DNA of 43,631 bases, taken from positions 1 to 43,631 of the IMG/VR virus record IMGVR_UViG_3300025324_000018; one strand, given 5' to 3'. Origin of the DNA: a virus. The notes beneath the pieces are model-generated. The model did no database searches, was not told where the DNA came from, and saw only the letters and a program-made list of their open reading frames with translations. The stretch's first letter is position 1. Each line of letters starts with the position of its first letter. Shown here in pieces: positions 3,357-37,937 of the stretch. The position numbers and the translations under genes are program-made.

Positions 3357-3572
3357 ATGGCAACCTACAGTGAGATTGAAAATTTCTCCAAGAGGGAACT
3401 TGTTGATTTTCTCAATACCATCGTAACTGCCAGTCGAACTGATCTCCTTACCATGAAAAAGGACGAGCTTCTTCATATGGCAATGGTTTATGGGGAACCA
3501 GAAGAAACGCCGGCCACGATTGCCGACGTCAACCCAAAAAGCGACCTACGCACTTCGCACTCGGTCAGGTAA
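3357..3572 (+). CDS. Small hypothetical protein
   Basis: A 71-residue protein with an excellent SD (TTAAGGAGAACTG) before its ATG. Residues 8-45 could form two helices (E-I-E-N-F-S-K-R-E-L-V-D-F-L, then a Lys-Lys-Asp-Glu-Leu motif), reminiscent of SAP/HeH-like or Rho-N helical mini-domains. The basic C-terminal tail overlaps the glycosyltransferase start by 83 nt in another frame. No enzymatic function is apparent. Confidence 0.6.
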   Translation: MATYSEIENFSKRELVDFLNTIVTASRTDLLTMKKDELLHMAMVYGEPEETPATIADVNPKSDLRTSHSVR

Positions 3573-4314
3573 GATAGCCATAGGCTATTGCCATCCTTAC
3601 CAAGTCTCCTCGATTTGGCATACCTCTCTAATTAACCTTCTCCAAAAAAACTGGCGAAGGATCCCTTATGTGATTTCCGTCAACTCAGGGCCGAAAGTGG
3701 ATGCAGCACGGAACGATATCTTCAAAGTCTGGCTGACTGAGACTGACGCCTCTCACATGTTGATGGTAGACACAGATATGGTTTTGCCTGTGGACGTTCT
3801 AGATCGTCTCCTTGCCTGTAACAAGGATATTGCTAGCGCTCTATGCTTCACCACAGGCTTTAATGGGAACCGGGTAATCCCAGCTATCAGGGTGATAGTG
3901 GAAAGCTCGGACGGTAGTCCGACCCTTCAGCCCCTTTGGGATTATCCTGTCAACACGCTCATCCAAGTCGATGCCATAGGGGCTGCTTGTTTCCTTGTCA
4001 AGCGAAAGGTCGCGGAAGGTATCTGGGAAGCAAGAGGTCGAGATCATGCGATGCCGTGGTTCGCTCACGGGATGCATAATGGCGTCGTAATAGGGGAGGA
4101 CGTCGCGTTTTGCCTTACTGCGGGGAAATGTGGTTTCGAGGTCTGGGTCGATACTGGGCTCGTGGTGGATCATGTTAAACCTCACCTTTATGGGGAATCG
4201 GATTACGTGTTCTCGTTGTCAGGGGAAGGACACCCCCATTATACTGAGCGTGATGAAGTCCCAATCTACCGAAAGCTGACAGGTAATGGTAGTTTTGGTG
4301 AAGAACCTCGTTGA
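3490..4314 (+). CDS. GT-A fold glycosyltransferase
   Basis: A 274-residue glycosyltransferase-like protein. After a basic leader of about 27 residues comes a beta-strand (IAIGYCHP), an ARND nucleotide-contact segment near residue 74, the metal-binding D-x-D in MLMVDTDMV (about residues 93-99), an acceptor-side segment with Cys and Phe-Thr, and a GEDVAFC acidic motif near residue 200 followed by a C-terminal VDH. This order matches family-2-like GT-A enzymes using sugar nucleotides. It overlaps the previous gene by 83 nt; 3490 is the only ATG. Since the phage encodes a dCMP hydroxymethylase-like enzyme, candidate acceptors are modified DNA bases or virion proteins; location in the late operon favours virion glycosylation. 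The acceptor is unknown. Confidence 0.8.
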   Translation: MGNQKKRRPRLPTSTQKATYALRTRSGKIAIGYCHPYQVSSIWHTSLINLLQKNWRRIPYVISVNSGPKVDAARNDIFKVWLTETDASHMLMVDTDMVLPVDVLDRLLACNKDIASALCFTTGFNGNRVIPAIRVIVESSDGSPTLQPLWDYPVNTLIQVDAIGAACFLVKRKVAEGIWEARGRDHAMPWFAHGMHNGVVIGEDVAFCLTAGKCGFEVWVDTGLVVDHVKPHLYGESDYVFSLSGEGHPHYTERDEVPIYRKLTGNGSFGEEPR

Positions 4315-11732: not shown

Positions 11733-11754
11733 GATGCTAGTCTAATAGTCCGAC
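11733..11754 (-). promoter_or_regulatory. GTCTAATA-type motif upstream of the nuclease gene
   Basis: The 45-bp gap before the TTG start at 11709 holds GTCTAATA (11740-11747; reads TATTAGAC on the - strand), about 30 nt upstream of the start. Related copies precede the genes starting at 17104 and 22090, so it may be a -10/operator element. Confidence 0.35.
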
Positions 11755-14228
11755 TACCGTCGCACAAATGCTTCTGCATCCTCTGACCAGAACCTACCGA
11801 CCTTAGAGTCAGTTACTATAGGTACAGTCAGAAGGGTGTCCCACTCATCTTTTAGCGGCAAATTCTCCATGACTTCGAGGATTCGAGGAACTACATCGTC
11901 TAGAGCTTCCTCTCTCACCTCGAACAGAATAGAGTCATGGACTGTGGAGATGATTCTCGCCACCCTTGGATCCAGTTGGCCATGAAGCTTGACCATACTC
12001 ATGAGCATCATGTCCGAAGCTAAGGACTGGACTGGTGAGTTGATGGCCTGCCTCTCAGCTTCCTCTCGGACAAGCTTGTTGGTGGAAACTATATCCCACA
12101 GCCGTCTCTTACGACCGATAGCCGAGATCACCCATTTCCGTCGTCTAGCGGCAGAACGTTGTCTTTCATGCCAAGCTTCGAGAGATCGGTAAGTAGTGAA
12201 GAATATACGGCGGACGTCTTGCGCCTCAAGGTCGGATACATTGACGCCGTAACTGGTTCTGGCGTACTGTATAAACTTCCTCCAACCCATCCCATAAACA
12301 AACCCGAAGTTGACAGCCTTGGCTTTCTTTCTGATTTCGGAAGTAATCTCACCGTCCGAAAGCCCAGTAACCTCCATAGCTGTCTCGGTATGGATGTCCC
12401 GATTTGTGTTGAAGGCTCGGAGCATGGATTTGTCTTGGCTATAGTGAGCCACAATTCGCAATTCAATCTGGCTGTAGTCGGCGTCAACGATACGCCATCC
12501 TCGTCTACCACCAATAATCCCTCGGATGAAAGGATCTCTAGGTACTTGCTGAAGGTTGGGATTCTCGCACGAAAGCCTTCCCGTAACAGTGTGAAAAGGT
12601 TTGAAATGGCCATGAAGTCTAGCGGAATCGTCCATGAGCCCTGCCCAACTGTCAAAGTAGCGAGAAAGGTACCCTTGCCACTTTCTGAACTCCAAGATGG
12701 CATCAACGATTCCAGTGTCATCCAGATCCCCCAACCGAACTAAGGTCTCCTCATCTGTGGAGGGAGCTCCCCCCTTAGTTTCCTTCAGTATGGGGAAGTC
12801 TAGCTCATCAAAGAGAATCCCGGCGAGTTGCTTCGGTGATCGAGGATTGAATACTCTACCAGCTACCTCGAAAAGCTTTTCCTGCTCGGCTTCCATTCGA
12901 TCTTTCGCAATCATGCGTCGAGCATTGAACTTCCCCCTATGAATAGGCAGCCCAGTCAATTCAATTTCGCTTAGGACGTTCGCTGCCGGCATCAACAGCT
13001 TGTAGAACAGCCTTTCGCTTAGACCGTCACGCCTCAAACGCCGTCTCATGATGGGGTAAAGTCGTCTGGTGTAGTCTGAGTCCCTTGCTCCGTACTCGGC
13101 AAGATCGCCAAGAGTGGTTCTAGTGGTGTCAGCCTTATCGAGAAGCCCCTTGTATTGTGGAGCGCCAAGGTAATACTGGGACATAAACCCAAGATCCTTA
13201 CGAACGTTCTCATCCAGAGCGTACTGTGCCCCCATCGTATCGAAGGACTGACGAATGTGAATCCCGAACTGCTCGAGGCCTTTCTGATCGAACATACCAT
13301 TGTGCATTATCCACAGAGAAACGCCTTCGATGTATGGTTTAAGGGCGTTCAAGACCTTTTGAGGATCACGCCATCTAGATTCTGGATGCCAGAGTGGAAG
13401 AACGAATCCCACTCCCGGCTCAAAGGTGAAGTTGATCGAGGTAAGCTTGTAGCTAGAGTCCCACCATGCCAAACCCCCACCAGGAAATCTACCTACACCC
13501 CTATGAGAGGACGCTGTCTCAATGTCGATGGCTGCTGTATGGGCCAGCGACAATCTGTCAGCTAACTCCCTCAAGACCTCCTTGCTATTCACAAGGATTG
13601 CTTGGGTGACGACTTCGCCTTCTTCCCCACGCACCAGCCTTGCAAATGCTAGCAGGGCGCCCATGAAATCGCTCTCGTATCGTGGGTTACGAAGAACTGC
13701 GGCCGGGTGAACGGCTGCTACCCAGGTGGTGCCGTTCCTCTCGAAAGCTTCACCGTTATACTTCGTGATTCCTGATCGACCGAGTACCCCTCGGATCGCA
13801 GAGTTTCCAAAAAGGAGTCCATAGCTTGGTGCAACCACTTCGAGTTCTTGGAGAAGGTAGTTGGCCGTACACGTTTTGATGTTTGAAGGACTAGGCGTAG
13901 CGTTATCTTGTGGTCGGCACTTGACGACGTTGGTGACGAAGAACCACTCACGTTTCAGACCTACCTTCTTCAGAGCTTCCTCCAGATACTGACCAGCTGG
14001 ACCCGAAAATAATTTCCCCGTGATCTCCTCCTGTGACCCCGGCGCCTCGCCCACCAAGGCTAGACGCTTGGATCTTATCACCAGAGGTGGGTTCCCTATA
14101 ACGCAAACCCGAGTCGTCTTCTTGTGGAGAGGACATAGCTTGCACTTTGGATTTCTTAATCTCAGTAACTCGGACTCCAGCTTTCTTAAGGATTTGGAGA
14201 CCTGCGTGGTCCCTGTATTCTTCGGCAT
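11754..14228 (-). CDS. Uracil-DNA glycosylase / 3'-5' exonuclease / family-A DNA polymerase fusion
   Basis: An 824-residue three-domain enzyme. Residues 1-200 are a complete family-4 UDG: four Cys (29, 32, 104, 120) for a 4Fe-4S cluster, GEAPG at 60-64, and HPAAV near 173. Residues 225-400 are a DnaQ-like exonuclease with D-I-E (about 234), H-N-G-M-F-D (about 308) and Y-G-A-R-D (about 378). The rest is PolA-type polymerase: motif A DADYSQIELR (about 581), motif B R-K-K-A-K-A-V-N-F-G (about 632) and motif C VHDS (about 762). All catalytic residues are present. It is probably the replicative polymerase. The start is fixed by AAGGAGGTGAT; 281 nt overlap the dCMP deaminase gene in another frame. 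Confidence 0.93.
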   Translation of the reverse strand: MPKNTGTTQVSKSLRKLESELLRLRNPKCKLCPLHKKTTRVCVIGNPPLVIRSKRLALVGEAPGSQEEITGKLFSGPAGQYLEEALKKVGLKREWFFVTNVVKCRPQDNATPSPSNIKTCTANYLLQELEVVAPSYGLLFGNSAIRGVLGRSGITKYNGEAFERNGTTWVAAVHPAAVLRNPRYESDFMGALLAFARLVRGEEGEVVTQAILVNSKEVLRELADRLSLAHTAAIDIETASSHRGVGRFPGGGLAWWDSSYKLTSINFTFEPGVGFVLPLWHPESRWRDPQKVLNALKPYIEGVSLWIMHNGMFDQKGLEQFGIHIRQSFDTMGAQYALDENVRKDLGFMSQYYLGAPQYKGLLDKADTTRTTLGDLAEYGARDSDYTRRLYPIMRRRLRRDGLSERLFYKLLMPAANVLSEIELTGLPIHRGKFNARRMIAKDRMEAEQEKLFEVAGRVFNPRSPKQLAGILFDELDFPILKETKGGAPSTDEETLVRLGDLDDTGIVDAILEFRKWQGYLSRYFDSWAGLMDDSARLHGHFKPFHTVTGRLSCENPNLQQVPRDPFIRGIIGGRRGWRIVDADYSQIELRIVAHYSQDKSMLRAFNTNRDIHTETAMEVTGLSDGEITSEIRKKAKAVNFGFVYGMGWRKFIQYARTSYGVNVSDLEAQDVRRIFFTTYRSLEAWHERQRSAARRRKWVISAIGRKRRLWDIVSTNKLVREEAERQAINSPVQSLASDMMLMSMVKLHGQLDPRVARIISTVHDSILFEVREEALDDVVPRILEVMENLPLKDEWDTLLTVPIVTDSKVGRFWSEDAEAFVRR

Positions 14229-14565
14229 AGATCACCTCCTTAACGCCAGAATTGATGAGGAGTTGAGCACAGGAAAGACAAGGTGAAACGGTAACAAACA
14301 TCGTGGTATTGTCTGTAGAGATTCCATATTTAGCTGCAAAGGCAACCGCATTCACCTCAGCATGAACAGCCTCTCTACAGTAGGTTAAATCATCGTAGAG
14401 TTCCTCATGACCACAATGGGGCATACCAGAGGGAGCACCGTTGTAACCATGGGAAATGATCCGCTTATCACGGACGATGATGGCACCAACAGCTTTGCGA
14501 TGGCAGGTTGAGAATCGTCCAAAAAACGCAGCCAGATCGAGATAGTCTTGGACCTTCATGCTCAT
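13948..14565 (-). CDS. dCMP deaminase-like zinc enzyme
   Basis: A 205-residue cytidine deaminase-fold protein. Zinc ligands and the catalytic Glu are visible as H-A-E (68-70) and P-C-x-x-C (95-99); C-G-H and C near residues 51-63 could hold a second zinc as in T4 dCMP deaminase. It would convert dCMP to dUMP, feeding thymidylate synthesis, and 5-hydroxymethyl-dCMP is a possible alternative substrate. The core ends near residue 138; the remaining Gly/Ser-rich tail of about 65 residues is encoded antiphase to the polymerase N terminus. The gene follows a ThyA-like gene without overlap. The long tail suggests stop loss after overprinting. Confidence 0.88.
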   Translation of the reverse strand: MSMKVQDYLDLAAFFGRFSTCHRKAVGAIIVRDKRIISHGYNGAPSGMPHCGHEELYDDLTYCREAVHAEVNAVAFAAKYGISTDNTTMFVTVSPCLSCAQLLINSGVKEVIYAEEYRDHAGLQILKKAGVRVTEIKKSKVQAMSSPQEDDSGLRYREPTSGDKIQASSLGGRGAGVTGGDHGEIIFGSSWSVSGGSSEEGRSET

Positions 14566-14567
14566 GG

Positions 14568-15248
14568 TTAAAACACCCCTTCCAAATCCTTAGCGAATGC
14601 GTGAAGGCTGAAGATTGTATGGGTAAAGTAACCCATACTTACCTGAAGAAGCTGTCGGAAGAAATTCTGGTAAAGGACAGCAAGAACCACATCCTTCCGA
14701 AAATGTTTGATGAAGTCACAGGACCTCATGACGTAGTGAAGATGAAGGCTACCCTGGCGAACCATGAGGTGATAGCCTAAAGAACAAGGAACACGAATGT
14801 CCCCTCCTGTGGAAAGTAAATCGTCCGGATGCCAGATTGGTAACCAAGCTTGTCTCGTTTCCGAGTTACCTTGAAGCAGAACCTTCACCGCGTTGATATA
14901 TGGAACCATGCGCTCGCTGTAGGTATACGAGAACTTTCCATTATGAAGGAACTGCTGCCAGTAATCAGCATCCACCTTCCACGATAGACCTGGGTTTAGA
15001 TGGATTGGACCCATTCTCTCTGCAAACTCAGACGTTACGTATTCTTCCAAATGCTCAGGCAAGTCCTCCCAGGCACTCTCGGGCTCAATCAGAGAATAGG
15101 TGTAGTTCATCAGTTCATGGGTTAAGTATCCAGGATCATTAGAGACATCCATGTCCTGAACTGACTTGGATTGATAGACCACAGCTAGCTCTTTGAGGTC
15201 ACGCTTGATCTCCGATTCGACTTCCCAATACGTTGCGTAGGTTCTCAT
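14568..15248 (-). CDS. dCMP hydroxymethylase-like ThyA-superfamily enzyme
   Basis: A 226-residue ThyA-fold protein. Alignment by eye to E. coli thymidylate synthase gives nucleophile Cys155 (VPCS), phosphate Arg132, the R-S-x-D segment (M-R-S-C-D, 174-178), and His216 in SLHAF. The dUMP-reading Asn of thymidylate synthase is replaced by Asp186 (F-R-K-D), the exchange that makes T4 gp42 specific for dCMP; the MRS-x-D, FR-x-D and SLH patches resemble gp42. It probably converts dCMP to 5-hydroxymethyl-dCMP with methylene-tetrahydrofolate. The C terminus is about 20 residues shorter than gp42. ATG overlaps the previous stop (ATGA), so it is co-translated with the second ThyA-like gene. Confidence 0.8.
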   Translation of the reverse strand: MRTYATYWEVESEIKRDLKELAVVYQSKSVQDMDVSNDPGYLTHELMNYTYSLIEPESAWEDLPEHLEEYVTSEFAERMGPIHLNPGLSWKVDADYWQQFLHNGKFSYTYSERMVPYINAVKVLLQGNSETRQAWLPIWHPDDLLSTGGDIRVPCSLGYHLMVRQGSLHLHYVMRSCDFIKHFRKDVVLAVLYQNFFRQLLQVSMGYFTHTIFSLHAFAKDLEGVF

Positions 15249-16090
15249 ATCTCGAAGCCCTCCAGCTTCTCGAAGGTTAACTCTTCCGCCTTAATTGACG
15301 GCAAAAACTCCCCTCTCTGCCACTCCTGATACCGGCGTCTCACTCGTCTAAGTGGTCCGTATTTCTCCTCATCAAGAGTTTTCCCTGCTTCCTCATAGCC
15401 GACAATTCGAGACTGCCACTTAAGTATCTCAGCCCAGGTAGGTGTCGCCAAAACGGAATCAGGAAATCGAGAAGCCGCCTGCTCCAACTCCGCTGAGAGA
15501 TCGGGTTGGGTGTAGATATAAGGAATAGATTTGAACGGGTGGAGCGAGAGAACGTTGAGGTTCCACTGAAACGCAATCTCAGTTCCACTTCCCTCGGCAA
15601 TTTGTCGGGCGAGAACATGTCCGATTGCAAGATCGAGTCCCATGATGTAGGCATTGTAAGAGACTCGGCTATAGAACGTAAGAGTTGGGACAATGTGAGA
15701 GTCTGCGGCACCTCGGTAGACCACTCCAATGAGGCAGTTCCCCCACTTGTGCCTTTTTGCACGACGAGGGTTACGCCTAAACGCCATTTCCGTAAGGGAA
15801 CCATTACTCCCTCTTCCGTTGTAGAGGACACGACACCTCCTAATGAAATCGGCTGTCTCCTGTGGATCAAGATAATCCCGGATCAGCATTGTCCAACGTT
15901 GCCCGGTGAGCCAAATCTCTGCCAGATCAAAGTCGTAGTCTAATATTCCATCACACCTGAGAACAACATCGTTCAGGTTGCTGGCAATGGGTGAGATATG
16001 ATCCACAGAAAGAGAAGCAAGATGCCATCTCACCGTCTTTCGCCATAAGTCTGTGGCTGTCTTAGCCCTGACGACTCGAACTGGGTTCAA
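15245..16090 (-). CDS. Divergent ThyA-superfamily protein
   Basis: A 281-residue protein that aligns over most motifs with thymidylate synthases: an A-E-I-W-L-T-G segment (catalytic Glu58) matching E-L-L-W-F-L-x-G, Cys119 in G-N-C-L-I-G, Arg142 in F-Y-S-R, Asp153 in G-L-D at the position of the pyrimidine-reading Asn, and S-L-H-P-F (181-185) matching the D-T-H-x-Y segment. The usual R-S-x-D patch is R-V-x-Y, so phosphate or substrate binding must differ. The C-terminal 80 residues are an unmatched helical extension. Substrate unknown; it could be a second pyrimidine C5-modifying enzyme or an inactive partner of its neighbour. TTG start overlaps the preceding TGA, with AAAGGAG upstream. Confidence 0.65.
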   Translation of the reverse strand: MNPVRVVRAKTATDLWRKTVRWHLASLSVDHISPIASNLNDVVLRCDGILDYDFDLAEIWLTGQRWTMLIRDYLDPQETADFIRRCRVLYNGRGSNGSLTEMAFRRNPRRAKRHKWGNCLIGVVYRGAADSHIVPTLTFYSRVSYNAYIMGLDLAIGHVLARQIAEGSGTEIAFQWNLNVLSLHPFKSIPYIYTQPDLSAELEQAASRFPDSVLATPTWAEILKWQSRIVGYEEAGKTLDEEKYGPLRRVRRRYQEWQRGEFLPSIKAEELTFEKLEGFEI

Positions 16091-16542
16091 TAGCCGCTCC
16101 TTTGGCGAAACTTATTCACCTCTGACTTCTGGAAGTAGAGCTTGAAAAGATCCTGGGGCTCAAGTCCCGCTGTGATGCACATTTCCACAAAGAAGTGGAA
16201 AGCATCGGCGATCTCCTCTTGGAAATGATCGACGTCGGTTGGTTGAGCGTCTTTCTTCCAAGGCTTGTTCTTGAGGCAATTTGCAGCTTCCATCATCTCC
16301 TCGATGGTACGCTGCATGAGATCCTTGATTCGGTACTGGATCAAGCGAAGATCAAGTTTGCCATGAAGTAGCGGACTAGGAACTCTAGCACCATTGGCTA
16401 TTTCAATGGGACCATAAGTTTCCATAAGCTCTCTCTGCCGATTAAAGATAGCTGTAAGCATGTCCATCATAGAATGCATTCCTTGACCATATCTCTCGTG
16501 AATCTGGTCCCAATCTAGCTCAATGTCCTTGATATTAACCAT
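16087..16542 (-). CDS. All-alpha NTP pyrophosphatase (dUTPase/dCTPase-like)
   Basis: A 151-residue helical protein of the MazG/dimeric dUTPase superfamily: E-E-M-M-E-A-A (E-x-x-x-E metal motif), a K-N-K-P-W-K-K insertion typical of dUTPase_2/dCTPase members, then F-Q-E-E-I-A-D-A-F-H-F (E-x-x-D). These residues coordinate Mg and hydrolyse dUTP or dCTP to the monophosphate. Next to a dCMP hydroxymethylase-like gene it may act like T4 gp56, removing dCTP so that only the modified nucleotide enters DNA, while also supplying dCMP. The ATG at 16542 with AGGAG about 10 nt upstream is preferred to a TTG at 16548. Confidence 0.78.
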   Translation of the reverse strand: MVNIKDIELDWDQIHERYGQGMHSMMDMLTAIFNRQRELMETYGPIEIANGARVPSPLLHGKLDLRLIQYRIKDLMQRTIEEMMEAANCLKNKPWKKDAQPTDVDHFQEEIADAFHFFVEMCITAGLEPQDLFKLYFQKSEVNKFRQRSGY

Positions 16543-17104
16543 TAACAAACTCTCCTATCCGTTTCATCGCTGATTCCTGAGAAAAAGCAGGTGCACCGTT
16601 GAAGTCATACCATACTGGCTCTGGAAGATAATGGGAACCAAGGAAGAGATGATAGATCACCTTGTAAAACCAACGGATTCGGTACAGGTGACCTTGACCA
16701 ACCTTGTTTCCAAACTGATCTTGATGGATAACCATCCTATCAGAGTCTTGATTCGGTTCACCCATGCAGAAAACCAAAAGCACCTGCTCGTCGAACCCCG
16801 CCCATACGTCTATTGGATCATCAAGGCGACTCTTTCCTCTCATCACGTTGCCATAGACAAATTCCGAAATCTCAGGAGTCCTATCGAGGATATCGAGGTG
16901 AGTTACTCGACTCTTGAGGCTGTGGGAATCAACCCAGGTTTCGTAATTGGGTTTCCATCCAGTCTCTCTTCCTGCTGGCGATTTCGTTACAGAAGCTGAC
17001 TCGATCTTCGGATATTTTCCGCTTCGCCATGCCTCAATAATCTCCCCAGCCAAAGTGGTTTTGCCCCCACCATCTGGCCCTTCTAGAACGATTACCTTAC
17101 CCAT
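16535..17104 (-). CDS. Thymidylate-kinase-like dNMP kinase
   Basis: A 189-residue P-loop kinase: Walker A LEGPDGGGKTT at residues about 7-17, the D-R-T-P-E-I-S-E-F-V-Y nucleotide motif near 75 (matching the D-R-x-x-x-S-x-x-x-Y of thymidylate kinases), and a V-F-C-M strand. It phosphorylates deoxynucleoside monophosphates; in this cassette a 5-hydroxymethyl-dCMP or dTMP kinase (functional analogue of T4 gp1) is plausible. The ATG at 17104, behind a GAGAGGG SD, is chosen over an upstream codon that would extend into the helicase gene. A GTCTAATA-type motif lies about 30 nt upstream. Confidence 0.78.
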   Translation of the reverse strand: MGKVIVLEGPDGGGKTTLAGEIIEAWRSGKYPKIESASVTKSPAGRETGWKPNYETWVDSHSLKSRVTHLDILDRTPEISEFVYGNVMRGKSRLDDPIDVWAGFDEQVLLVFCMGEPNQDSDRMVIHQDQFGNKVGQGHLYRIRWFYKVIYHLFLGSHYLPEPVWYDFNGAPAFSQESAMKRIGEFVNG

Positions 17105-17129
17105 AGCCCTCTCGCTTTCTGAGTTAAAA

Positions 17130-17150
17130 AGTAGTCTAATATTCCGAAGT
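17130..17150 (-). promoter_or_regulatory. GTCTAATA-type motif upstream of the kinase gene
   Basis: GTCTAATA at 17134-17141 (TATTAGAC on the - strand) overlaps the helicase stop and lies about 30 nt before the kinase ATG, at a similar distance to the copies before 11709 and 22090. A -10-like or operator role is suggested. Confidence 0.35.
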
Positions 17151-18584
17151 CTGCGGAGCAATCATCAAGTCCGGATCATCCATCACCATGCGCTCTAAGT
17201 TTTTCTTTTCCCTAAGAGCTTGATCCACCAAGTTATCGACAGAGCCCTTAACAGTGAGATGGTAAAACGTGACAGGATCTTCTTGTCCTGACCTGACCAA
17301 ACGACCTCGGGATTGCTGATACTTGATCCAGGAGTGATCTTTAGAGAAAAAGATGGCGTCCGAACATACAGATTGTAACCCGTCAAGCGCCTCGGCTGAA
17401 CCAGCATGAAGTACCAAAACCTGAGATCGTAAGGTCCTTTGGAACTCCCTAACCACAGATCGCCGCCGAGCATCGGAGACTCCACCTCTGATAAGGAGAT
17501 CAGTTCTTGCAAGTTCGCAGATAGCCTCCATCTCCGCCACGAACGCTGCAAAGACCAAGACCTTCCGTTCTGCCGATTCGAGATCGGCGAGCAAGGACCC
17601 CAAGACGTTGAGCTTATCCCGGTGTAACTCCAAGATTTGTCCTGATGTGTCATGTACCCAACCTCCCGTCATTTGCCTAAGCCTCAGTAGTTTGGTTAGA
17701 ACTATTGGGGCCTCTATTTCGTGAGTCCTATGAACAACGTAGCCAGTCTCCGAGAAGATCGAGTAGACCTCCCAAGCATGTTGACTCATTTTCACAGGAA
17801 TGTTGACATCCGTTTCCTTAGGAAGATCCAAACAAGCTCGCTTCCTAACCGTCATAACGTAAGGCTTGTATCTCGCCCGAAGATCATCGAGGTTTTGATA
17901 GCCCCGAAGCTCATAGCCAGTCCTGCCACCCCAAACCCCATACATGTAACGGAACCTTGTCCAGGACATAGCGTCTCCTTTATATGGGTCACGCCAGATC
18001 ATCGGGTCGATCACCTTCAACTGAGAGTAAAGGTCAAGGTATTTGTTGCCGATTGGCGTTCCAGTCAGAAGAAGAACGTGCCTTGCTTTAGTTCCCAGCT
18101 TATGTGCAGCCAAGGAGCGTTTAGCGGTCGCATTCTTCACATAGTGGCTCTCGTCTAGTATCAATATGTCAGCGTCAAACGCCGAAAGTACGTCCATTAT
18201 CGCCCATTCTTGGTCCCTTCGGATGATGGCGTCATAGTTCACTACAACCATCTGCAAGCTGCTTGAGCCGTTGCTTACCATCTTCTGAATTCGGGCGGTT
18301 TTCTCGGCTATGGACCCCTCGAGGACCTCCATCTGCCGTTCGATTTGTTCTGGGAGATGTAGCGCAACCTGGTCCTCCCAGACGCCCAATGCATTGATAG
18401 GAGAAAGGACGAGGACTCTCTGTGCTTCCCTCTGTAGATAGAGAGCCGCCGAGAAGTCGATAGCCACCTTCGTCTTCCCCGTCCCCGGCTCAAAGAAAAG
18501 CCCTCCATTCCCATTCTTCCATAGCCATATGAGTGCCCTTCTCTGATGGTTGAATGGCTTAGTCCTCGGGCGGTACTTCGTCAT
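17136..18584 (-). CDS. SNF2-like superfamily 2 helicase
   Basis: A 482-residue SF2 ATPase: Q-region FNHQRRAL, motif I F-F-E-P-G-T-G-K-T-K (about residues 33-42), motif Ia VLVLSPINALGVWEDQ, motif II DESH (about 143), motif III LLTGTPIGN (about 172), and motif VI Q-S-R-G-R-L-V-R-S-G-Q near 440. All SNF2/DEAD motifs are intact, so it should translocate on DNA; phage members of this type assist replication or fork restart. ATG at 18584 (MTKYRP) is chosen because the longer reading lies in the upstream gene. It overlaps the upstream gene by 26 nt. Confidence 0.85.
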   Translation of the reverse strand: MTKYRPRTKPFNHQRRALIWLWKNGNGGLFFEPGTGKTKVAIDFSAALYLQREAQRVLVLSPINALGVWEDQVALHLPEQIERQMEVLEGSIAEKTARIQKMVSNGSSSLQMVVVNYDAIIRRDQEWAIMDVLSAFDADILILDESHYVKNATAKRSLAAHKLGTKARHVLLLTGTPIGNKYLDLYSQLKVIDPMIWRDPYKGDAMSWTRFRYMYGVWGGRTGYELRGYQNLDDLRARYKPYVMTVRKRACLDLPKETDVNIPVKMSQHAWEVYSIFSETGYVVHRTHEIEAPIVLTKLLRLRQMTGGWVHDTSGQILELHRDKLNVLGSLLADLESAERKVLVFAAFVAEMEAICELARTDLLIRGGVSDARRRSVVREFQRTLRSQVLVLHAGSAEALDGLQSVCSDAIFFSKDHSWIKYQQSRGRLVRSGQEDPVTFYHLTVKGSVDNLVDQALREKKNLERMVMDDPDLMIAPQTSEY

Positions 18585-22730: not shown

Positions 22731-22999
22731 CGCGGCATCTCAAAAATGTGCCAAACATATGACTCATCAAAAACCGTACCAACATAGTAGTCCTTAGTCA
22801 ACAGTGTTCCGCCAGGTGCTGGTAATTCTAAACCAGTACCTACTACGAAGAAGTTCCTAAGTTCCCTATCTGCATTCGGGTCTACTATGGCCCAAATCGT
22901 CGGGGCTCCCATCTGCATGGCTACCTTGATGATCTGAGCGCCTCTCGGCATCTCATGACTCCAATACTGAGCAAGGGACCATTTCCAAATGACTCTCAT
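22727..22999 (-). CDS. DUF7352-like small phage protein
   Basis: A 90-residue protein with the pattern M-P-R-G-A-Q-I-I-K-V, then P-T-I-W-A-I-V-D-P-N-A, R-x-F-x-V-V-G-T-G, and a closing Y-V-G-T-V ... W-H-I-F-E. From memory these correspond to DUF7352-like small phage proteins of unknown function, common in early regions. AGAGG SD precedes ATG 22999. Confidence 0.75.
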   Translation of the reverse strand: MRVIWKWSLAQYWSHEMPRGAQIIKVAMQMGAPTIWAIVDPNADRELRNFFVVGTGLELPAPGGTLLTKDYYVGTVFDESYVWHIFEMPR

Positions 23000-23358
23000 G
23001 TTGGTTCCTCTACAACGTTGTTCTGAATGATGATGGTCCGACCTTTCTCGGGGATGAACAGAACCCTGCCAGGTGTCAAGAGCTCCTCAATGATCTGCAT
23101 GAGGTCCCTCGATAGCTCAGGATCATCGTACTTGACCGAAGCAGCGTAGGCCGCTAGAGCAACTAAGGCATGGTGATCGGTGTCAGGCTTAAGAACGAAC
23201 ACGAACGACTGAACCTCATCCATATCCTCATCGTCCCCTCCCAGATCACGGTAGACGGGACCATCTACTATTGGGACTGGATGCTCATCGACATTGACTG
23301 GTTCGTAAAAGACACGGTACTTTGCGTAGAGGCCCTCTTTTTCATAGTGACTATTCAC
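22996..23358 (-). CDS. Hypothetical early protein
   Basis: A 120-residue acidic protein starting with GTG behind AAGGAAG. A D-L-G-G-D-D-E-D-M-D-E stretch (about residues 38-48) precedes a beta strand and a helix (H-A-L-V-A-L-A-A-Y-A-A). No motif allows a function. It overlaps its neighbours by 4-8 nt within the early operon. Confidence 0.6.
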   Translation of the reverse strand: MNSHYEKEGLYAKYRVFYEPVNVDEHPVPIVDGPVYRDLGGDDEDMDEVQSFVFVLKPDTDHHALVALAAYAASVKYDDPELSRDLMQIIEELLTPGRVLFIPEKGRTIIIQNNVVEEPT

Positions 23359-30755: not shown

Positions 30756-31118
30756 TTACTCCTTTCCCCTCCAACCTCTACTTTTCCATCGGAAACTTCT
30801 GATCTCACCTTCGATGATTTTCTTGATTCGAGGATCTGATTCTTCGGGCTCAGGGGTATGAATGGCACAGAATTCGAGGGGATTGTAACGGCTGAGTATC
30901 GTCTCGCAGCCTTTTTTCAGACAAACCTGTCCTATGCCGTAATCTTTGGCTTGACTTTCTCCTGGGGCAACCCGACTCCCCTTGATCGTGCCTAAAGACT
31001 TCATTAGTCTCATATTAGACGATCCGATTACGGTTTCAAAGTCATTCTCGTCTGGCTCTCTCTTTAGGATTCTTGTTGGTTGACTGAAAGGCGCTTGGAA
31101 GCGATAGTCTTTAGTCAT
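30756..31118 (-). CDS. Cys/His zinc-type protein, first gene of early operon
   Basis: A 120-residue protein whose ATG (31116-31118) shares the palindrome CATG with the divergent terminase ATG. C-L-K-K-G-C ... F-C-A-I-H is a possible zinc site. Otherwise basic and unstructured at both ends. As the first - strand gene it probably is expressed earliest. No SD is seen, so leaderless or coupled translation is possible. Confidence 0.6.
   Translation of the reverse strand: MTKDYRFQAPFSQPTRILKREPDENDFETVIGSSNMRLMKSLGTIKGSRVAPGESQAKDYGIGQVCLKKGCETILSRYNPLEFCAIHTPEPEESDPRIKKIIEGEIRSFRWKSRGWRGKE
31007..31020. promoter_or_regulatory. GTCT-N6-AGAC palindrome near divergent starts
   Basis: GTCT-CATATT-AGAC lies about 100 bp inside the - strand gene from the divergent start. 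It repeats the half-sites found before 21563 and 22090 and could be an operator for the divergent transcripts. Confidence 0.3.
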
Positions 31119-33435
31119 GGCCGGTCAGAGATCGAGTGCCCGCAATACGTATAAGGAAGGCTTTATACCGGAGCGGAAGTCTGGGGAGCATTTGACTCAG
31201 GAACACTTGGACTGGTTTTATGCTGAGGTCAAACGTGGTCGTAATCCCTTCCGTGTGGGAGAGGATCTCAGTATGTCTCGCTCCTCGGTCCGCAAGCACA
31301 TGAGGTTGGCTTCTGCTAAGTATAGTCTGTCTACTTCTCCTAGATCAGCCAAAAGCAATGAGTCTCTTTCCAGCCTCGTCGTTGCTCGGAAAATGTCATC
31401 CGACGACGATCTGGAGCCGCCCGATCCCATTCTGAAGTACGCTAACCTCAACAAGTTTGCCAAGAAGGCGTATCGTGACTTTGGTTACTTTCGCCAGAGG
31501 TACTTCAATAGACGCCACATTCCCTGGCAGATCAAGATGGCCTACATCATTATGTCGTGGGTCGAGTACGGGAGAGAAACCAATGAGATCGTTAAGGGAA
31601 TTCTCAACACGCCGCCCGGCGGGGGTAAAACGACCACAGTCACTCATGACTTCCCGGCCTGGGTCGTTGCTAGGAGCAGAGAGGTACGATGCGCTCTGGG
31701 CAGCCGCACTGGACCTCAGTCAGAGAGATATGTTAGACGCCTCCGTACCACCTTTGAACGCAACCTCCTGCTCAATCTTGAGTTTGGACGATTCAAGCCA
31801 CTTGAGACTGAGTTGTGGCGTCGGGATCAGTTCTTGGTTGATGGGGTGGTTGGTCATGAGGCGTCAATTGAGTACCGTCTTGCTTTGGCTGGCTTCGATC
31901 ATACTGATCGTGCGGTTAAAAAGCGCCTCGAAGATGCTGGCGATCCCATTCACCAGGTCATTGAGAGCCTTGAAGGGGCTTTCTTGGCTGGTGAGAAGGA
32001 ACCGACGGTCACCGCTCTCTCACAGGAGATGGGCTTTCTAGGTGGTAGATACGATCTAAACCTGTGGGATGACCTCTGCGACAGATATAACAGTCGCACC
32101 CCCGACCAGCGGGACAGTCTTGAGGAATGGTGGTTCGCTGAAGGTGAGTCCCGATGCGAGCCGGGCGGCGTGGTTGCTTTGATTGGTACGAGATTCGGCA
32201 AATATGACTTGTATCGACACTGTAGAGATTTGACCTATGTGACCGATGATGCCCTTGAGGAACGTGTGTTGGACGAAGTTCACTCTGGGCTGTCAGATGA
32301 GCAGATTGCAGAGATACGAGACGACCTTGAGAGGGAACTTGTTGATAGGTACGGTGAAAAGTATGGGGAGATCATCGTACCGGGTCTTCCTAGCGAGAAA
32401 GTCAAGCCTGTCTATAGGTATATCAAGTTTCCAGCTCACGATCAGGAACGCTGCACAGCACCTCAATCTCTAAAGAACGACGATCACCTCGCTTGTGTGC
32501 TGGATGCTCAGAGATTCTCGTATCGTCATTTGCTCAAGGTCGAGGCGTCGAATCCCAAGAAGTTCAAACTTACCTATCAGCAGGAAGATGAGGCCACAGA
32601 GGAGAACCTCGTTCAGGAGATTTGGCTGACGGGGGGGCGAGATAAAGACGGCTTCATCTATCCTGGCTGCTATAACTACGAAAGATCCCTCCTTCAGTTT
32701 CCAGCAACACTAGATGATAGGAGACCAAATCTCTTCTCTGTGGCAACAGTAGATCCCTCTGCCGTCAACTGGTGGTCGATTCAGTGGTGGATTTGGGACT
32801 CTGACGATGATAAGGATTATCTGATGGACATTCTGCGAGCCAGATTGACTTCAGGTGCCTTTTTGGACTGGAATAGCCGGGAGCGGACTCACAGGGGTAT
32901 CATGCATGATTGGCAGGTGCGCTCTATGGAGATGGGCTTGCCAATAGGGGTCTGGATTGTGGAGCAGAATGCCGCCCAAAGATACCTTTTCCAGTATAAG
33001 TGGGTTCATGAGTGGATGAGGGAGATGAAAGTTACGGCTATTGGTCATGAGACTGGAGTAAATAAGAGCGATTTGGAGCTTGGAATCCAGACTCTGGGCC
33101 CTCGATATCGCCTTGGCCTCGTTGATTTGCCATATCGACAGACCGATCTCAAGACCCGAGTGAAGGTAAATGAGTTCAAGAAGGAGCTTGTCGAGTGGCC
33201 GGATGCTGTAACTGATGATATGGTTTCTGGTCATTGGTTCTTGCAGTTCAATCGGTATAAGTTACCGAGGAGCTTGAGTCTTGGTAAGGCCGCTTCTCAG
33301 ACCAAACATCCATTTGAGGATTCAATGCCTCCAGAGATGCGTCGTCGCAGAGGTCTCAATGAGCCTGAAAAGGAAAGGCTTAGTCATGTTGAGGCAAGAC
33401 GAGCGAGGGTACTCGATCAGGAGCGGCGGTCGTGA
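31117..33435 (+). CDS. Terminase large subunit with N-terminal HTH
   Basis: A 772-residue packaging ATPase-nuclease. N-terminal residues about 40-65 form a HTH (G-R-N-P-F-R-V-G-E-D-L-S-M-S-R-S-S-V-R-K-H), reminiscent of a fused small-subunit DNA-binding part. Walker A is N-T-P-P-G-G-G-K-T-T (about 164-173), Walker B-like L-N-L-W-D-D near 315, and the RNase H-like nuclease has V-A-T-V-D-P-S (about 543), V-E-Q-N near 615 and D-D-M-V near 695. Between Walker A and B there are about 145 residues including a helical insertion. The ATG is shared within CATG with the divergent gene. Confidence 0.88.
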   Translation: MAGQRSSARNTYKEGFIPERKSGEHLTQEHLDWFYAEVKRGRNPFRVGEDLSMSRSSVRKHMRLASAKYSLSTSPRSAKSNESLSSLVVARKMSSDDDLEPPDPILKYANLNKFAKKAYRDFGYFRQRYFNRRHIPWQIKMAYIIMSWVEYGRETNEIVKGILNTPPGGGKTTTVTHDFPAWVVARSREVRCALGSRTGPQSERYVRRLRTTFERNLLLNLEFGRFKPLETELWRRDQFLVDGVVGHEASIEYRLALAGFDHTDRAVKKRLEDAGDPIHQVIESLEGAFLAGEKEPTVTALSQEMGFLGGRYDLNLWDDLCDRYNSRTPDQRDSLEEWWFAEGESRCEPGGVVALIGTRFGKYDLYRHCRDLTYVTDDALEERVLDEVHSGLSDEQIAEIRDDLERELVDRYGEKYGEIIVPGLPSEKVKPVYRYIKFPAHDQERCTAPQSLKNDDHLACVLDAQRFSYRHLLKVEASNPKKFKLTYQQEDEATEENLVQEIWLTGGRDKDGFIYPGCYNYERSLLQFPATLDDRRPNLFSVATVDPSAVNWWSIQWWIWDSDDDKDYLMDILRARLTSGAFLDWNSRERTHRGIMHDWQVRSMEMGLPIGVWIVEQNAAQRYLFQYKWVHEWMREMKVTAIGHETGVNKSDLELGIQTLGPRYRLGLVDLPYRQTDLKTRVKVNEFKKELVEWPDAVTDDMVSGHWFLQFNRYKLPRSLSLGKAASQTKHPFEDSMPPEMRRRRGLNEPEKERLSHVEARRARVLDQERRS

Positions 33436-37664: not shown

Positions 37665-37937
37665 ATGAGGGCCTTGGGAGAGAGAGTCCTCATCCTAGAA
37701 GAAGATCAACCAGAAAATGTCCGAGACTCTGGCTTACTCGTTGTGGACTTAAGGCTAAGTGAGTGGAAGACGAGGCTTGGTAGAGTTCTCTCCATAGGTA
37801 GCAAGGTTCTAGAGCCAATTTCCATTGGTGACTTGGTAGTCTATGATTACTGGCATACTGCCAGGATGGTGGGTCATTTAGACAGACGGACCCATGTGAT
37901 CGAGTCTAGAGACATCCTAGCTATTGTAGAGGTTTAG
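37665..37937 (+). CDS. GroES-like co-chaperonin
   Basis: A 90-residue protein matching the GroES fold: L-G-E-R-V-L-I-L-E-E at the N terminus, D-S-G-L-L-V-V-D in place of the mobile-loop region, G-R-V-L-S-I-G-S, I-S-I-G-D-L-V-V-Y-D-Y-W and a closing D-I-L-A-I-V-E-V, as in Cpn10 and T4 gp31. It may help fold capsid or fibre proteins with the host GroEL. It sits in the fibre operon, 2 nt after the preceding stop. Confidence 0.75.
   Translation: MRALGERVLILEEDQPENVRDSGLLVVDLRLSEWKTRLGRVLSIGSKVLEPISIGDLVVYDYWHTARMVGHLDRRTHVIESRDILAIVEV

Follow-up and report, generated by a model that had tools for sequence, protein, structure and literature searches.

The 226-aa protein examined here is best explained, with a probability of about 0.7, as a member of a deep, phage-encoded clade within the thymidylate synthase (TS) superfamily that would act on C5 of dCMP and whose gene is usually paired with that of a second protein, hereafter X. 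The gene lies in IMG/VR virus record IMGVR_UViG_3300025324_000018, of which positions 1 to 43,631 were analyzed (hereafter the window). A sequence-only reading had proposed a T4-type dCMP hydroxymethylase and, by extension, hydroxymethylcytosine (hmC) in the phage DNA. That reading was right on the residues it cited and probably on the substrate. In the alignments made here, however, the residues known to determine whether a hydroxymethyl group is added do not support its further inference of T4-type hydroxymethylation and hmC DNA.

Identification of the gene and its relatives

The sequence-only reading gave no strand for the gene. Translation places a genuine open reading frame on the minus strand (Table 1), and the plus strand of the same interval contains 8 stops. 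The TS-like protein matches the Pfam Thymidylat_synt family (E 1.5e-8), PHROG 160 (E 3.6e-21) and PDB entries in a profile search (E 4e-16), and its AlphaFold2 model (pLDDT 95.4) is closest in fold to MilA (TM 0.84), so that the homology is not due to chance. By sequence, the HY126 dCMP hydroxylase is its closest match in the PDB, and the top-scoring ThyA structure in the PDB profile search is the N229D variant of L. casei TS. The protein stops directly past the His216 segment and has no ThyA C-terminal tail. All the residues previously cited, namely Arg132, Cys155, MRS-x-D (174-178), FR-x-D (183-186, here FRKD), Asp186 and SLH (214-216), are present, and the resemblance of these patches to T4 gp42 holds on alignment, gp42 reading MRSND, FRND and SLH at the corresponding places.

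Homologues were gathered from phage isolates and by an alignment-based scan of IMG/VR (427 candidates, best 80 kept). IMG/VR scans with a single protein as query gave no matches, and alignment-based scans provided 80 loci each for the TS-like protein and for X. In addition to its 174 members, the family alignment includes two enzymes of the RB69 type and a truncated ORF, and the 174 relatives were not chosen by the residue at the Asp186 position. Asp186, Cys155, Arg152, Arg175, His216, Tyr110, Arg113, Arg78, Glu45 and Asn85-Pro86 are invariant in the family. The second phosphate-binding Arg (Arg127) is represented by Gln133, with Gln in most relatives and Lys or Arg in some. No single Glu aligns with the folate-activating residue (E. 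coli Glu58, T4 Glu60), for which family positions 72 and 77 are candidates. Glu45 was considered for this role and rejected, as the reference alignment places it at T4 Glu35 and the matching Glu of SPO1 and RB69.

Table 1. Features of the window (positions 1 to 43,631) and of related phage loci (L numbers) discussed in the text.
Feature	Position	Strand	Match or conservation
dCMP deaminase, conserved part about residues 1-147	13948..14565	minus	PF00383 E 1.5e-21; phrog_174 E 1.5e-51
Family A DNA polymerase with N-terminal uracil-DNA-glycosylase-superfamily domain	11754..14228	minus	PF00476 E 8e-97; PF03167 E 7e-26
Arg-type TS-superfamily enzyme, 226 aa	14568..15248	minus	predicted (d)CMP C5-modifying
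Codon Asp186 (E. coli ThyA Asn177 / T4 gp42 Asp179 position)	14691..14693	minus	Asp in 174/174
Codon Cys155, predicted nucleophile	14784..14786	minus	invariant
Codon Arg152, at T4 Asp145 place	14793..14795	minus	Arg in 174/174 relatives
Codons Tyr108-Thr109-Tyr110 (T4 Ser94-x-Tyr96 position)	14919..14927	minus	His/Tyr-x-Tyr in all relatives
Partner gene X, 281 aa, TTG start as listed, PHROG 13667	15245..16090	minus	second, divergent TS-fold protein (predicted)
Codon X Asp153 (ThyA 177 position)	15632..15634	minus	168/168
Codon X Arg142 (ThyA Arg166 position)	15665..15667	minus	166/168
Codon X Cys119 (ThyA Cys146 position)	15734..15736	minus	167/167; profile-aligned with Cys155
Codon X Tyr73 (suggested ThyA Tyr94 position)	15872..15874	minus	167/167; before matching helix in both models, putative
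All-alpha dUTPase/MazG-like NTP pyrophosphohydrolase	16087..16548	minus	PF08761 (dUTPase_2) E 1.3e-8; phrog_12184 E 2e-36
Thymidylate-kinase-like P-loop kinase, weak	16535..17161	minus	phrog_761 E 9e-12
Glycosyltransferase-like gene	3490-4314	plus	phrog_34859 E 2e-10; Pfam Anp1 below cut-off
Sulfatase-modifying-factor-like fragment	22996-23358	minus	phrog_9572 E 1.5e-13
Large terminase	31117-33435	plus	phrog_38 E 1.5e-37
GroES-like co-chaperonin	37665-37937	plus	phrog_3188 E 1e-10
DNA methyltransferase, N4/N6 type	L033 4935-5771; L098 5072-5953		directly upstream of Arg-type TS, X-less loci
DNA methyltransferase, C5 type	L046 4859-5998		directly upstream of Arg-type TS, X-less locus
Mallos ThyA-clade enzyme	L186 481-1341		Asp at 177, Asn at -3
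Phendrix annotated thymidylate synthase	L189 902-1786		Asp at 177, Asp at -3
AB434P3 annotated dUMP hydroxymethyltransferase	L190 638-1300		Asp at 177, Asp at -3

The gene resides in a conserved nucleotide-metabolism cassette

The dUTPase, the weakly thymidylate-kinase-like kinase and the dCMP deaminase named by the sequence-only reading as neighbors are all present, all on the minus strand and separated by overlaps or gaps of 2-14 bases. The deaminase frame overlaps that of the polymerase by 281 bases (13948-14228); because its homology ends near residue 147, the deaminase tail may be spurious, or the polymerase may start further in. The order thymidylate kinase, dUTPase/MazG, X, TS-like enzyme, dCMP deaminase, family A polymerase, exonuclease and ATPase is conserved, with small insertions, in phages of Gordonia, Mycobacterium, Streptomyces, Microbacterium, Curtobacterium, Pseudomonas, Serratia, Brevundimonas and Yersinia. 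No dCMP deaminase is annotated at its cassette place in Muddy and Strzyga; by host, the cassettes lacking this annotation come from a Mycobacterium phage (Muddy) and a Brevundimonas phage. Among the IMG/VR loci, the TS-like gene most commonly adjoins genes of the polymerase, X, pyrophosphohydrolase and deaminase families.

Elsewhere in the window, a tblastn search with the large terminase against 50,697 phage records gave no match, and the phage is therefore far from known isolates. Genes for a GroES-like co-chaperonin and a sulfatase-modifying-factor-like fragment were also identified (Table 1). Shortly past the major head protein gene lies a glycosyltransferase-like gene whose product could decorate either the capsid or DNA. 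As a base-decorating enzyme it was set aside, since it follows the capsid gene and occurs in only one of 21 related records searched (53% identity).

The predicted substrate is dCMP

The Asp that the sequence-only reading had placed at the pyrimidine-reading position is there: Asp186 aligns with ThyA 177, where ThyA enzymes carry Asn for uracil, and every one of the 174 relatives has Asp. Exchanging Asn for Asp at this position makes ThyA use dCMP in place of dUMP (Liu & Santi and others, as quoted in PMC8670742), and in ThyA this Asp alone is enough to give a dCMP methylase (Liu & Santi 1992, from the same source). The residues selecting deoxyribonucleotides have been described for MilA versus gp42 (PMC5175136), and the TS-like protein carries the deoxy-selecting pair, Arg132 and Ser176. 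At the Ser176 position (ThyA 167), nine family members have Ala, the residue contributing to the preference of MilA for CMP over dCMP. The MetaGPA study found both phage TS proteins with Asp177 and dCMP deaminase domains to be associated with DNA carrying modified cytosine (PMC8670742).

Actinophage annotations assume instead that the enzyme serves the nucleotide pool only, as an odd dTMP synthase, in phages with unmodified DNA. It has been annotated as thymidylate synthase, or as part of thymine synthesis, in Azira (PMC10353413) and Serbin (PMC6509536), and the dCMP deaminase, dUTPase and thymidylate kinase of the cassette are consistent with such a role. The uracil-reading site, however, holds Asp rather than Asn in every member, and a separate ThyX is encoded by 19 of 60 genomes or contigs carrying the cassette, while Huwbert and L061 have a canonical ThyA beside the cassette enzyme; a search of the window for ThyX found none. 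Dedicated dTMP synthases in cassette genomes make dTMP synthesis an unlikely role for the TS-like protein, and we regard the pool-only explanation as improbable. Given Asp186, the deoxy-selecting residues and these separate synthases, dCMP (or CMP) is the likely substrate, a prediction from aligned residues and gene content that we hold with considerable confidence.

The residues that govern the added group differ from those of T4 gp42

In T4 gp42, the water from which the hydroxymethyl group arises is handled by Ser94-x-Tyr96 and by Asp145, which lies three residues before the catalytic Cys; these residues have been proposed as a signature of hydroxymethylation (Park et al., PMC6400193). Its general form is Asp/Glu at -3 from the Cys together with Ser/Thr-x-Tyr, and T4 mutants show the importance of these residues (PMC6400193). 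The TS-like protein shares with gp42 the TS fold, the catalytic Cys (T4 Cys148), the cytosine-reading Asp (T4 Asp179) and the MRS-x-D, FR-x-D and SLH patches. It differs at the signature itself: Asp145 is replaced by Arg152, Ser94 by Tyr108, with Tyr or His at this place throughout the family, and the paired phosphate residues Arg123/Arg124 by Arg132-Gln133. The Arg aligned with Asp145 is a feature that the sequence-only reading missed.

A reference panel places this Arg in context. Asp occupies position -3 in T4 gp42, SPO1 gp29, the Kuttervirus dUMP enzyme, Phendrix and AB434P3. RB69, CIP9 and PTm1 carry Glu there, ThyA carries Leu and Xanthomonas phage Mallos carries Asn, and all 26 TS-like family members included have Arg; MilA also has Asp (VADNIDVAC in the alignment). 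A maximum-likelihood tree separates the TS-like family from all references with support of 100/99. The family groups neither with gp42, whose branch is long, nor with the Glu-bearing RB69 and PTm1. Within the same panel, Gordonia phage Phendrix (annotated thymidylate synthase) and Agathobaculum phage AB434P3 (annotated dUMP hydroxymethyltransferase) combine Asp at 177 with Asp at -3, the pattern of a dCMP hydroxymethylase. The Mallos enzyme falls in the ThyA clade (100/98) and may be a natural dCMP methylase, because Mallos shares its subfamily with XP12, whose DNA is known for containing 5-methylcytosine.

The enzyme could still be a true dCMP hydroxymethylase like T4 gp42, with another residue activating the water, so that 5-hydroxymethyl-dCMP and hmC DNA are made. 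Asp186 and the three gp42-like patches, a profile match to the gp42-led panel (E 1.5e-24) and the proximity of the model to the CMP hydroxymethylase MilA speak for this possibility. Against it, all 174 relatives have Arg at -3 and Tyr/His-x-Tyr in place of the published signature (PMC6400193), SPO1 gp29, the Kuttervirus dUMP enzyme and Phendrix retain Asp at -3, and the TS-like clade is separate. Alignment with gp42, gp29 and ThyA, as the sequence-only reading had suggested, thus upholds Asp186 but finds Arg where both hydroxymethylases have Asp, and we place this explanation at clearly less than even odds.

A dCMP methylase producing 5-methyl-dCMP, as ThyA does after the Asn-to-Asp exchange, would be compatible with the lack of a water-activating acid at -3; the N229D L. 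casei enzyme has this very activity (cited in PMC8670742) and is the top-scoring ThyA structure. ThyA, however, has a hydrophobic residue rather than Arg at -3, the TS-like protein ends past the His216 segment without the ThyA tail, and it falls outside the ThyA clade, which leaves a methylase rather unlikely. Less likely still is a flavin-dependent dCMP 5-hydroxylase of the RB69/HY126 kind, supplying 5-hydroxy-dC for later decoration. PDB entries 9iqu and 9iqc describe the RB69/HY126 enzyme as a dCMP hydroxylase with FAD, and it has been called a 5-hydroxy-dCMP synthase (PMC13390438); a gp42-type hydroxymethylase assignment for RB69ORF048c was accordingly rejected on the PDB titles and that paper. 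HY126 being the best PDB sequence match, the folate Glu not being evident and Mosigvirus making 5-hodCMP via a TS-superfamily enzyme (PMC13390438) favor a hydroxylase, but the Glu at -3 of that group is Arg here and the clades separate in the tree.

Since Asp177 also occurs in the RB69/HY126 dCMP hydroxylase, Asp186 predicts the base and not the added group, and Asp at ThyA position 177 is insufficient for calling hydroxymethylation. From these comparisons, 5-hydroxymethyl would be our tentative first choice of product, somewhat short of an even chance; some other group is doubtful, 5-methyl more so, and 5-hydroxy the least expected.

The adjacent gene X is predicted to encode a second TS-fold protein

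The gene between the dUTPase and the TS-like gene is predicted by modeling to be TS-fold in nature, which the sequence-only reading missed. X has no significant match in Pfam or NCBIfam and belongs to PHROG 13667 (E 8e-30), listed as "unknown function"; two phage records name it 'pyrimidine hmase synthase', whereas PHROGs assigns it no function. Relatives were found in 85 phage records and among 91 IMG/VR candidates. The AlphaFold2 model of X (pLDDT 93.9, pTM 0.91) was compared with the PDB using Foldseek, and all 21 matches at E<=0.001 belong to the TS superfamily, with moderate TM scores of about 0.4-0.5 and with the HY126 dCMP hydroxylase and MilA at the top. Profile comparison aligns X Cys119 with Cys155 and X Asp153 with Asp186, albeit with weak HHalign E-values (2e-4 to 3e-3), and global HHalign of X against the TS family gave no usable alignment; the assignment of X therefore rests mainly on the predicted fold. 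X carries Cys, Arg and Asp in TS spacing, and the Arg-Asp distance is 11 in every X and every TS-like protein. Tyr73 and Arg142 belonged to the search patterns for half of the X loci; the Cys and the Asp did not.

In the IMG/VR loci found with X, an Arg-type TS gene adjoins or lies close by in 77 of 77 testable cases (of 80, three ending too early), the two open frames being separated by a median of 58 bases. Conversely, X was recognized in 62 of the 80 loci found with the TS-like protein. It was not confidently detectable at the remaining 18, where whole-record searches gave weak partial matches in five, and X is thus not strictly required. Eight loci (L007, L008, L014, L061, L065, L066, L085 and L158) have two X genes near the TS-like gene. 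In some X-less loci, a DNA methyltransferase gene immediately precedes that of the Arg-type TS (Table 1). In L046 this is a C5-cytosine methylase, with which complete C5 substitution in that phage fits poorly.

Discussion

The TS-like protein and X together would most likely modify dCMP at C5, as read from their conserved residues. In such a reaction, Cys155 would attack C6 of dCMP, Asp186 would read and protonate the cytosine ring, and C5 would receive an oxygen or a one-carbon unit. X may complete a mixed dimer or catalyze a further reaction on a nucleotide of this kind. The co-encoded kinase could phosphorylate the product and the co-encoded polymerase use it, with the dUTPase/MazG-like enzyme and the dCMP deaminase shaping nucleotide pools. 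That the predicted product reaches virion DNA seems to us somewhat favored. The published accounts of PMBT14, Serbin, Emalyn, Azira and P744 contain no data about modified DNA, and a literature search of accessible papers found no biochemical or LC-MS data on any member of the TS-like family.

Comparison with named systems sets the enzyme apart from each of them. T4 gp42 lies outside its clade and has no TS-fold partner gene of this kind. MilA (PDB 5jnh, 5b6d), the nearest solved fold, shares the pyrimidine-site Asp but has Asp at -3 and ribose-selecting Ala/Lys, unlike the deoxy-selecting Ser176 and Arg132. The RB69/HY126 enzyme shares a short C-terminus and H-x-F at the ribose His, and differs in its clade and in the acid at -3. 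The dUMP hydroxymethylases SPO1 gp29 and those of Kuttervirus have the TS fold and the T-R-Q phosphate segment in common with it, but Asn for uracil and Asp at -3 where it has Asp186 and Arg152. The MetaGPA variants (eLife 2021), with Asp177 and a nearby dCMP deaminase, co-occur with a carbamoyltransferase, whereas a search for hmC carbamoyltransferase in 60 cassette genomes or contigs found none.

A more far-reaching interpretation, which we consider doubtful, is that the TS-like protein and X are the two halves of one enzyme, each with its own Cys and cytosine-reading Asp, and that this enzyme makes a cytosine nucleotide that no known TS homologue produces. The invariant Arg at the place of the water-activating Asp of T4 would then be the mark of a new chemistry, and phages infecting actinobacteria, proteobacteria and gut bacteria would widely carry the modified base.

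The gene pair is present in phages that can be cultured and are in common use, including Mycobacterium phage Muddy, the Gordonia phages Cozz, Emalyn and Vine, and phages of Serratia and Pseudomonas. Their annotations list an ordinary thymidylate synthesis function and a hypothetical protein. Should the two proteins indeed modify cytosine, a base modification would have gone unrecognized in many sequenced actinophages, with consequences for restriction, CRISPR tests and phage engineering.
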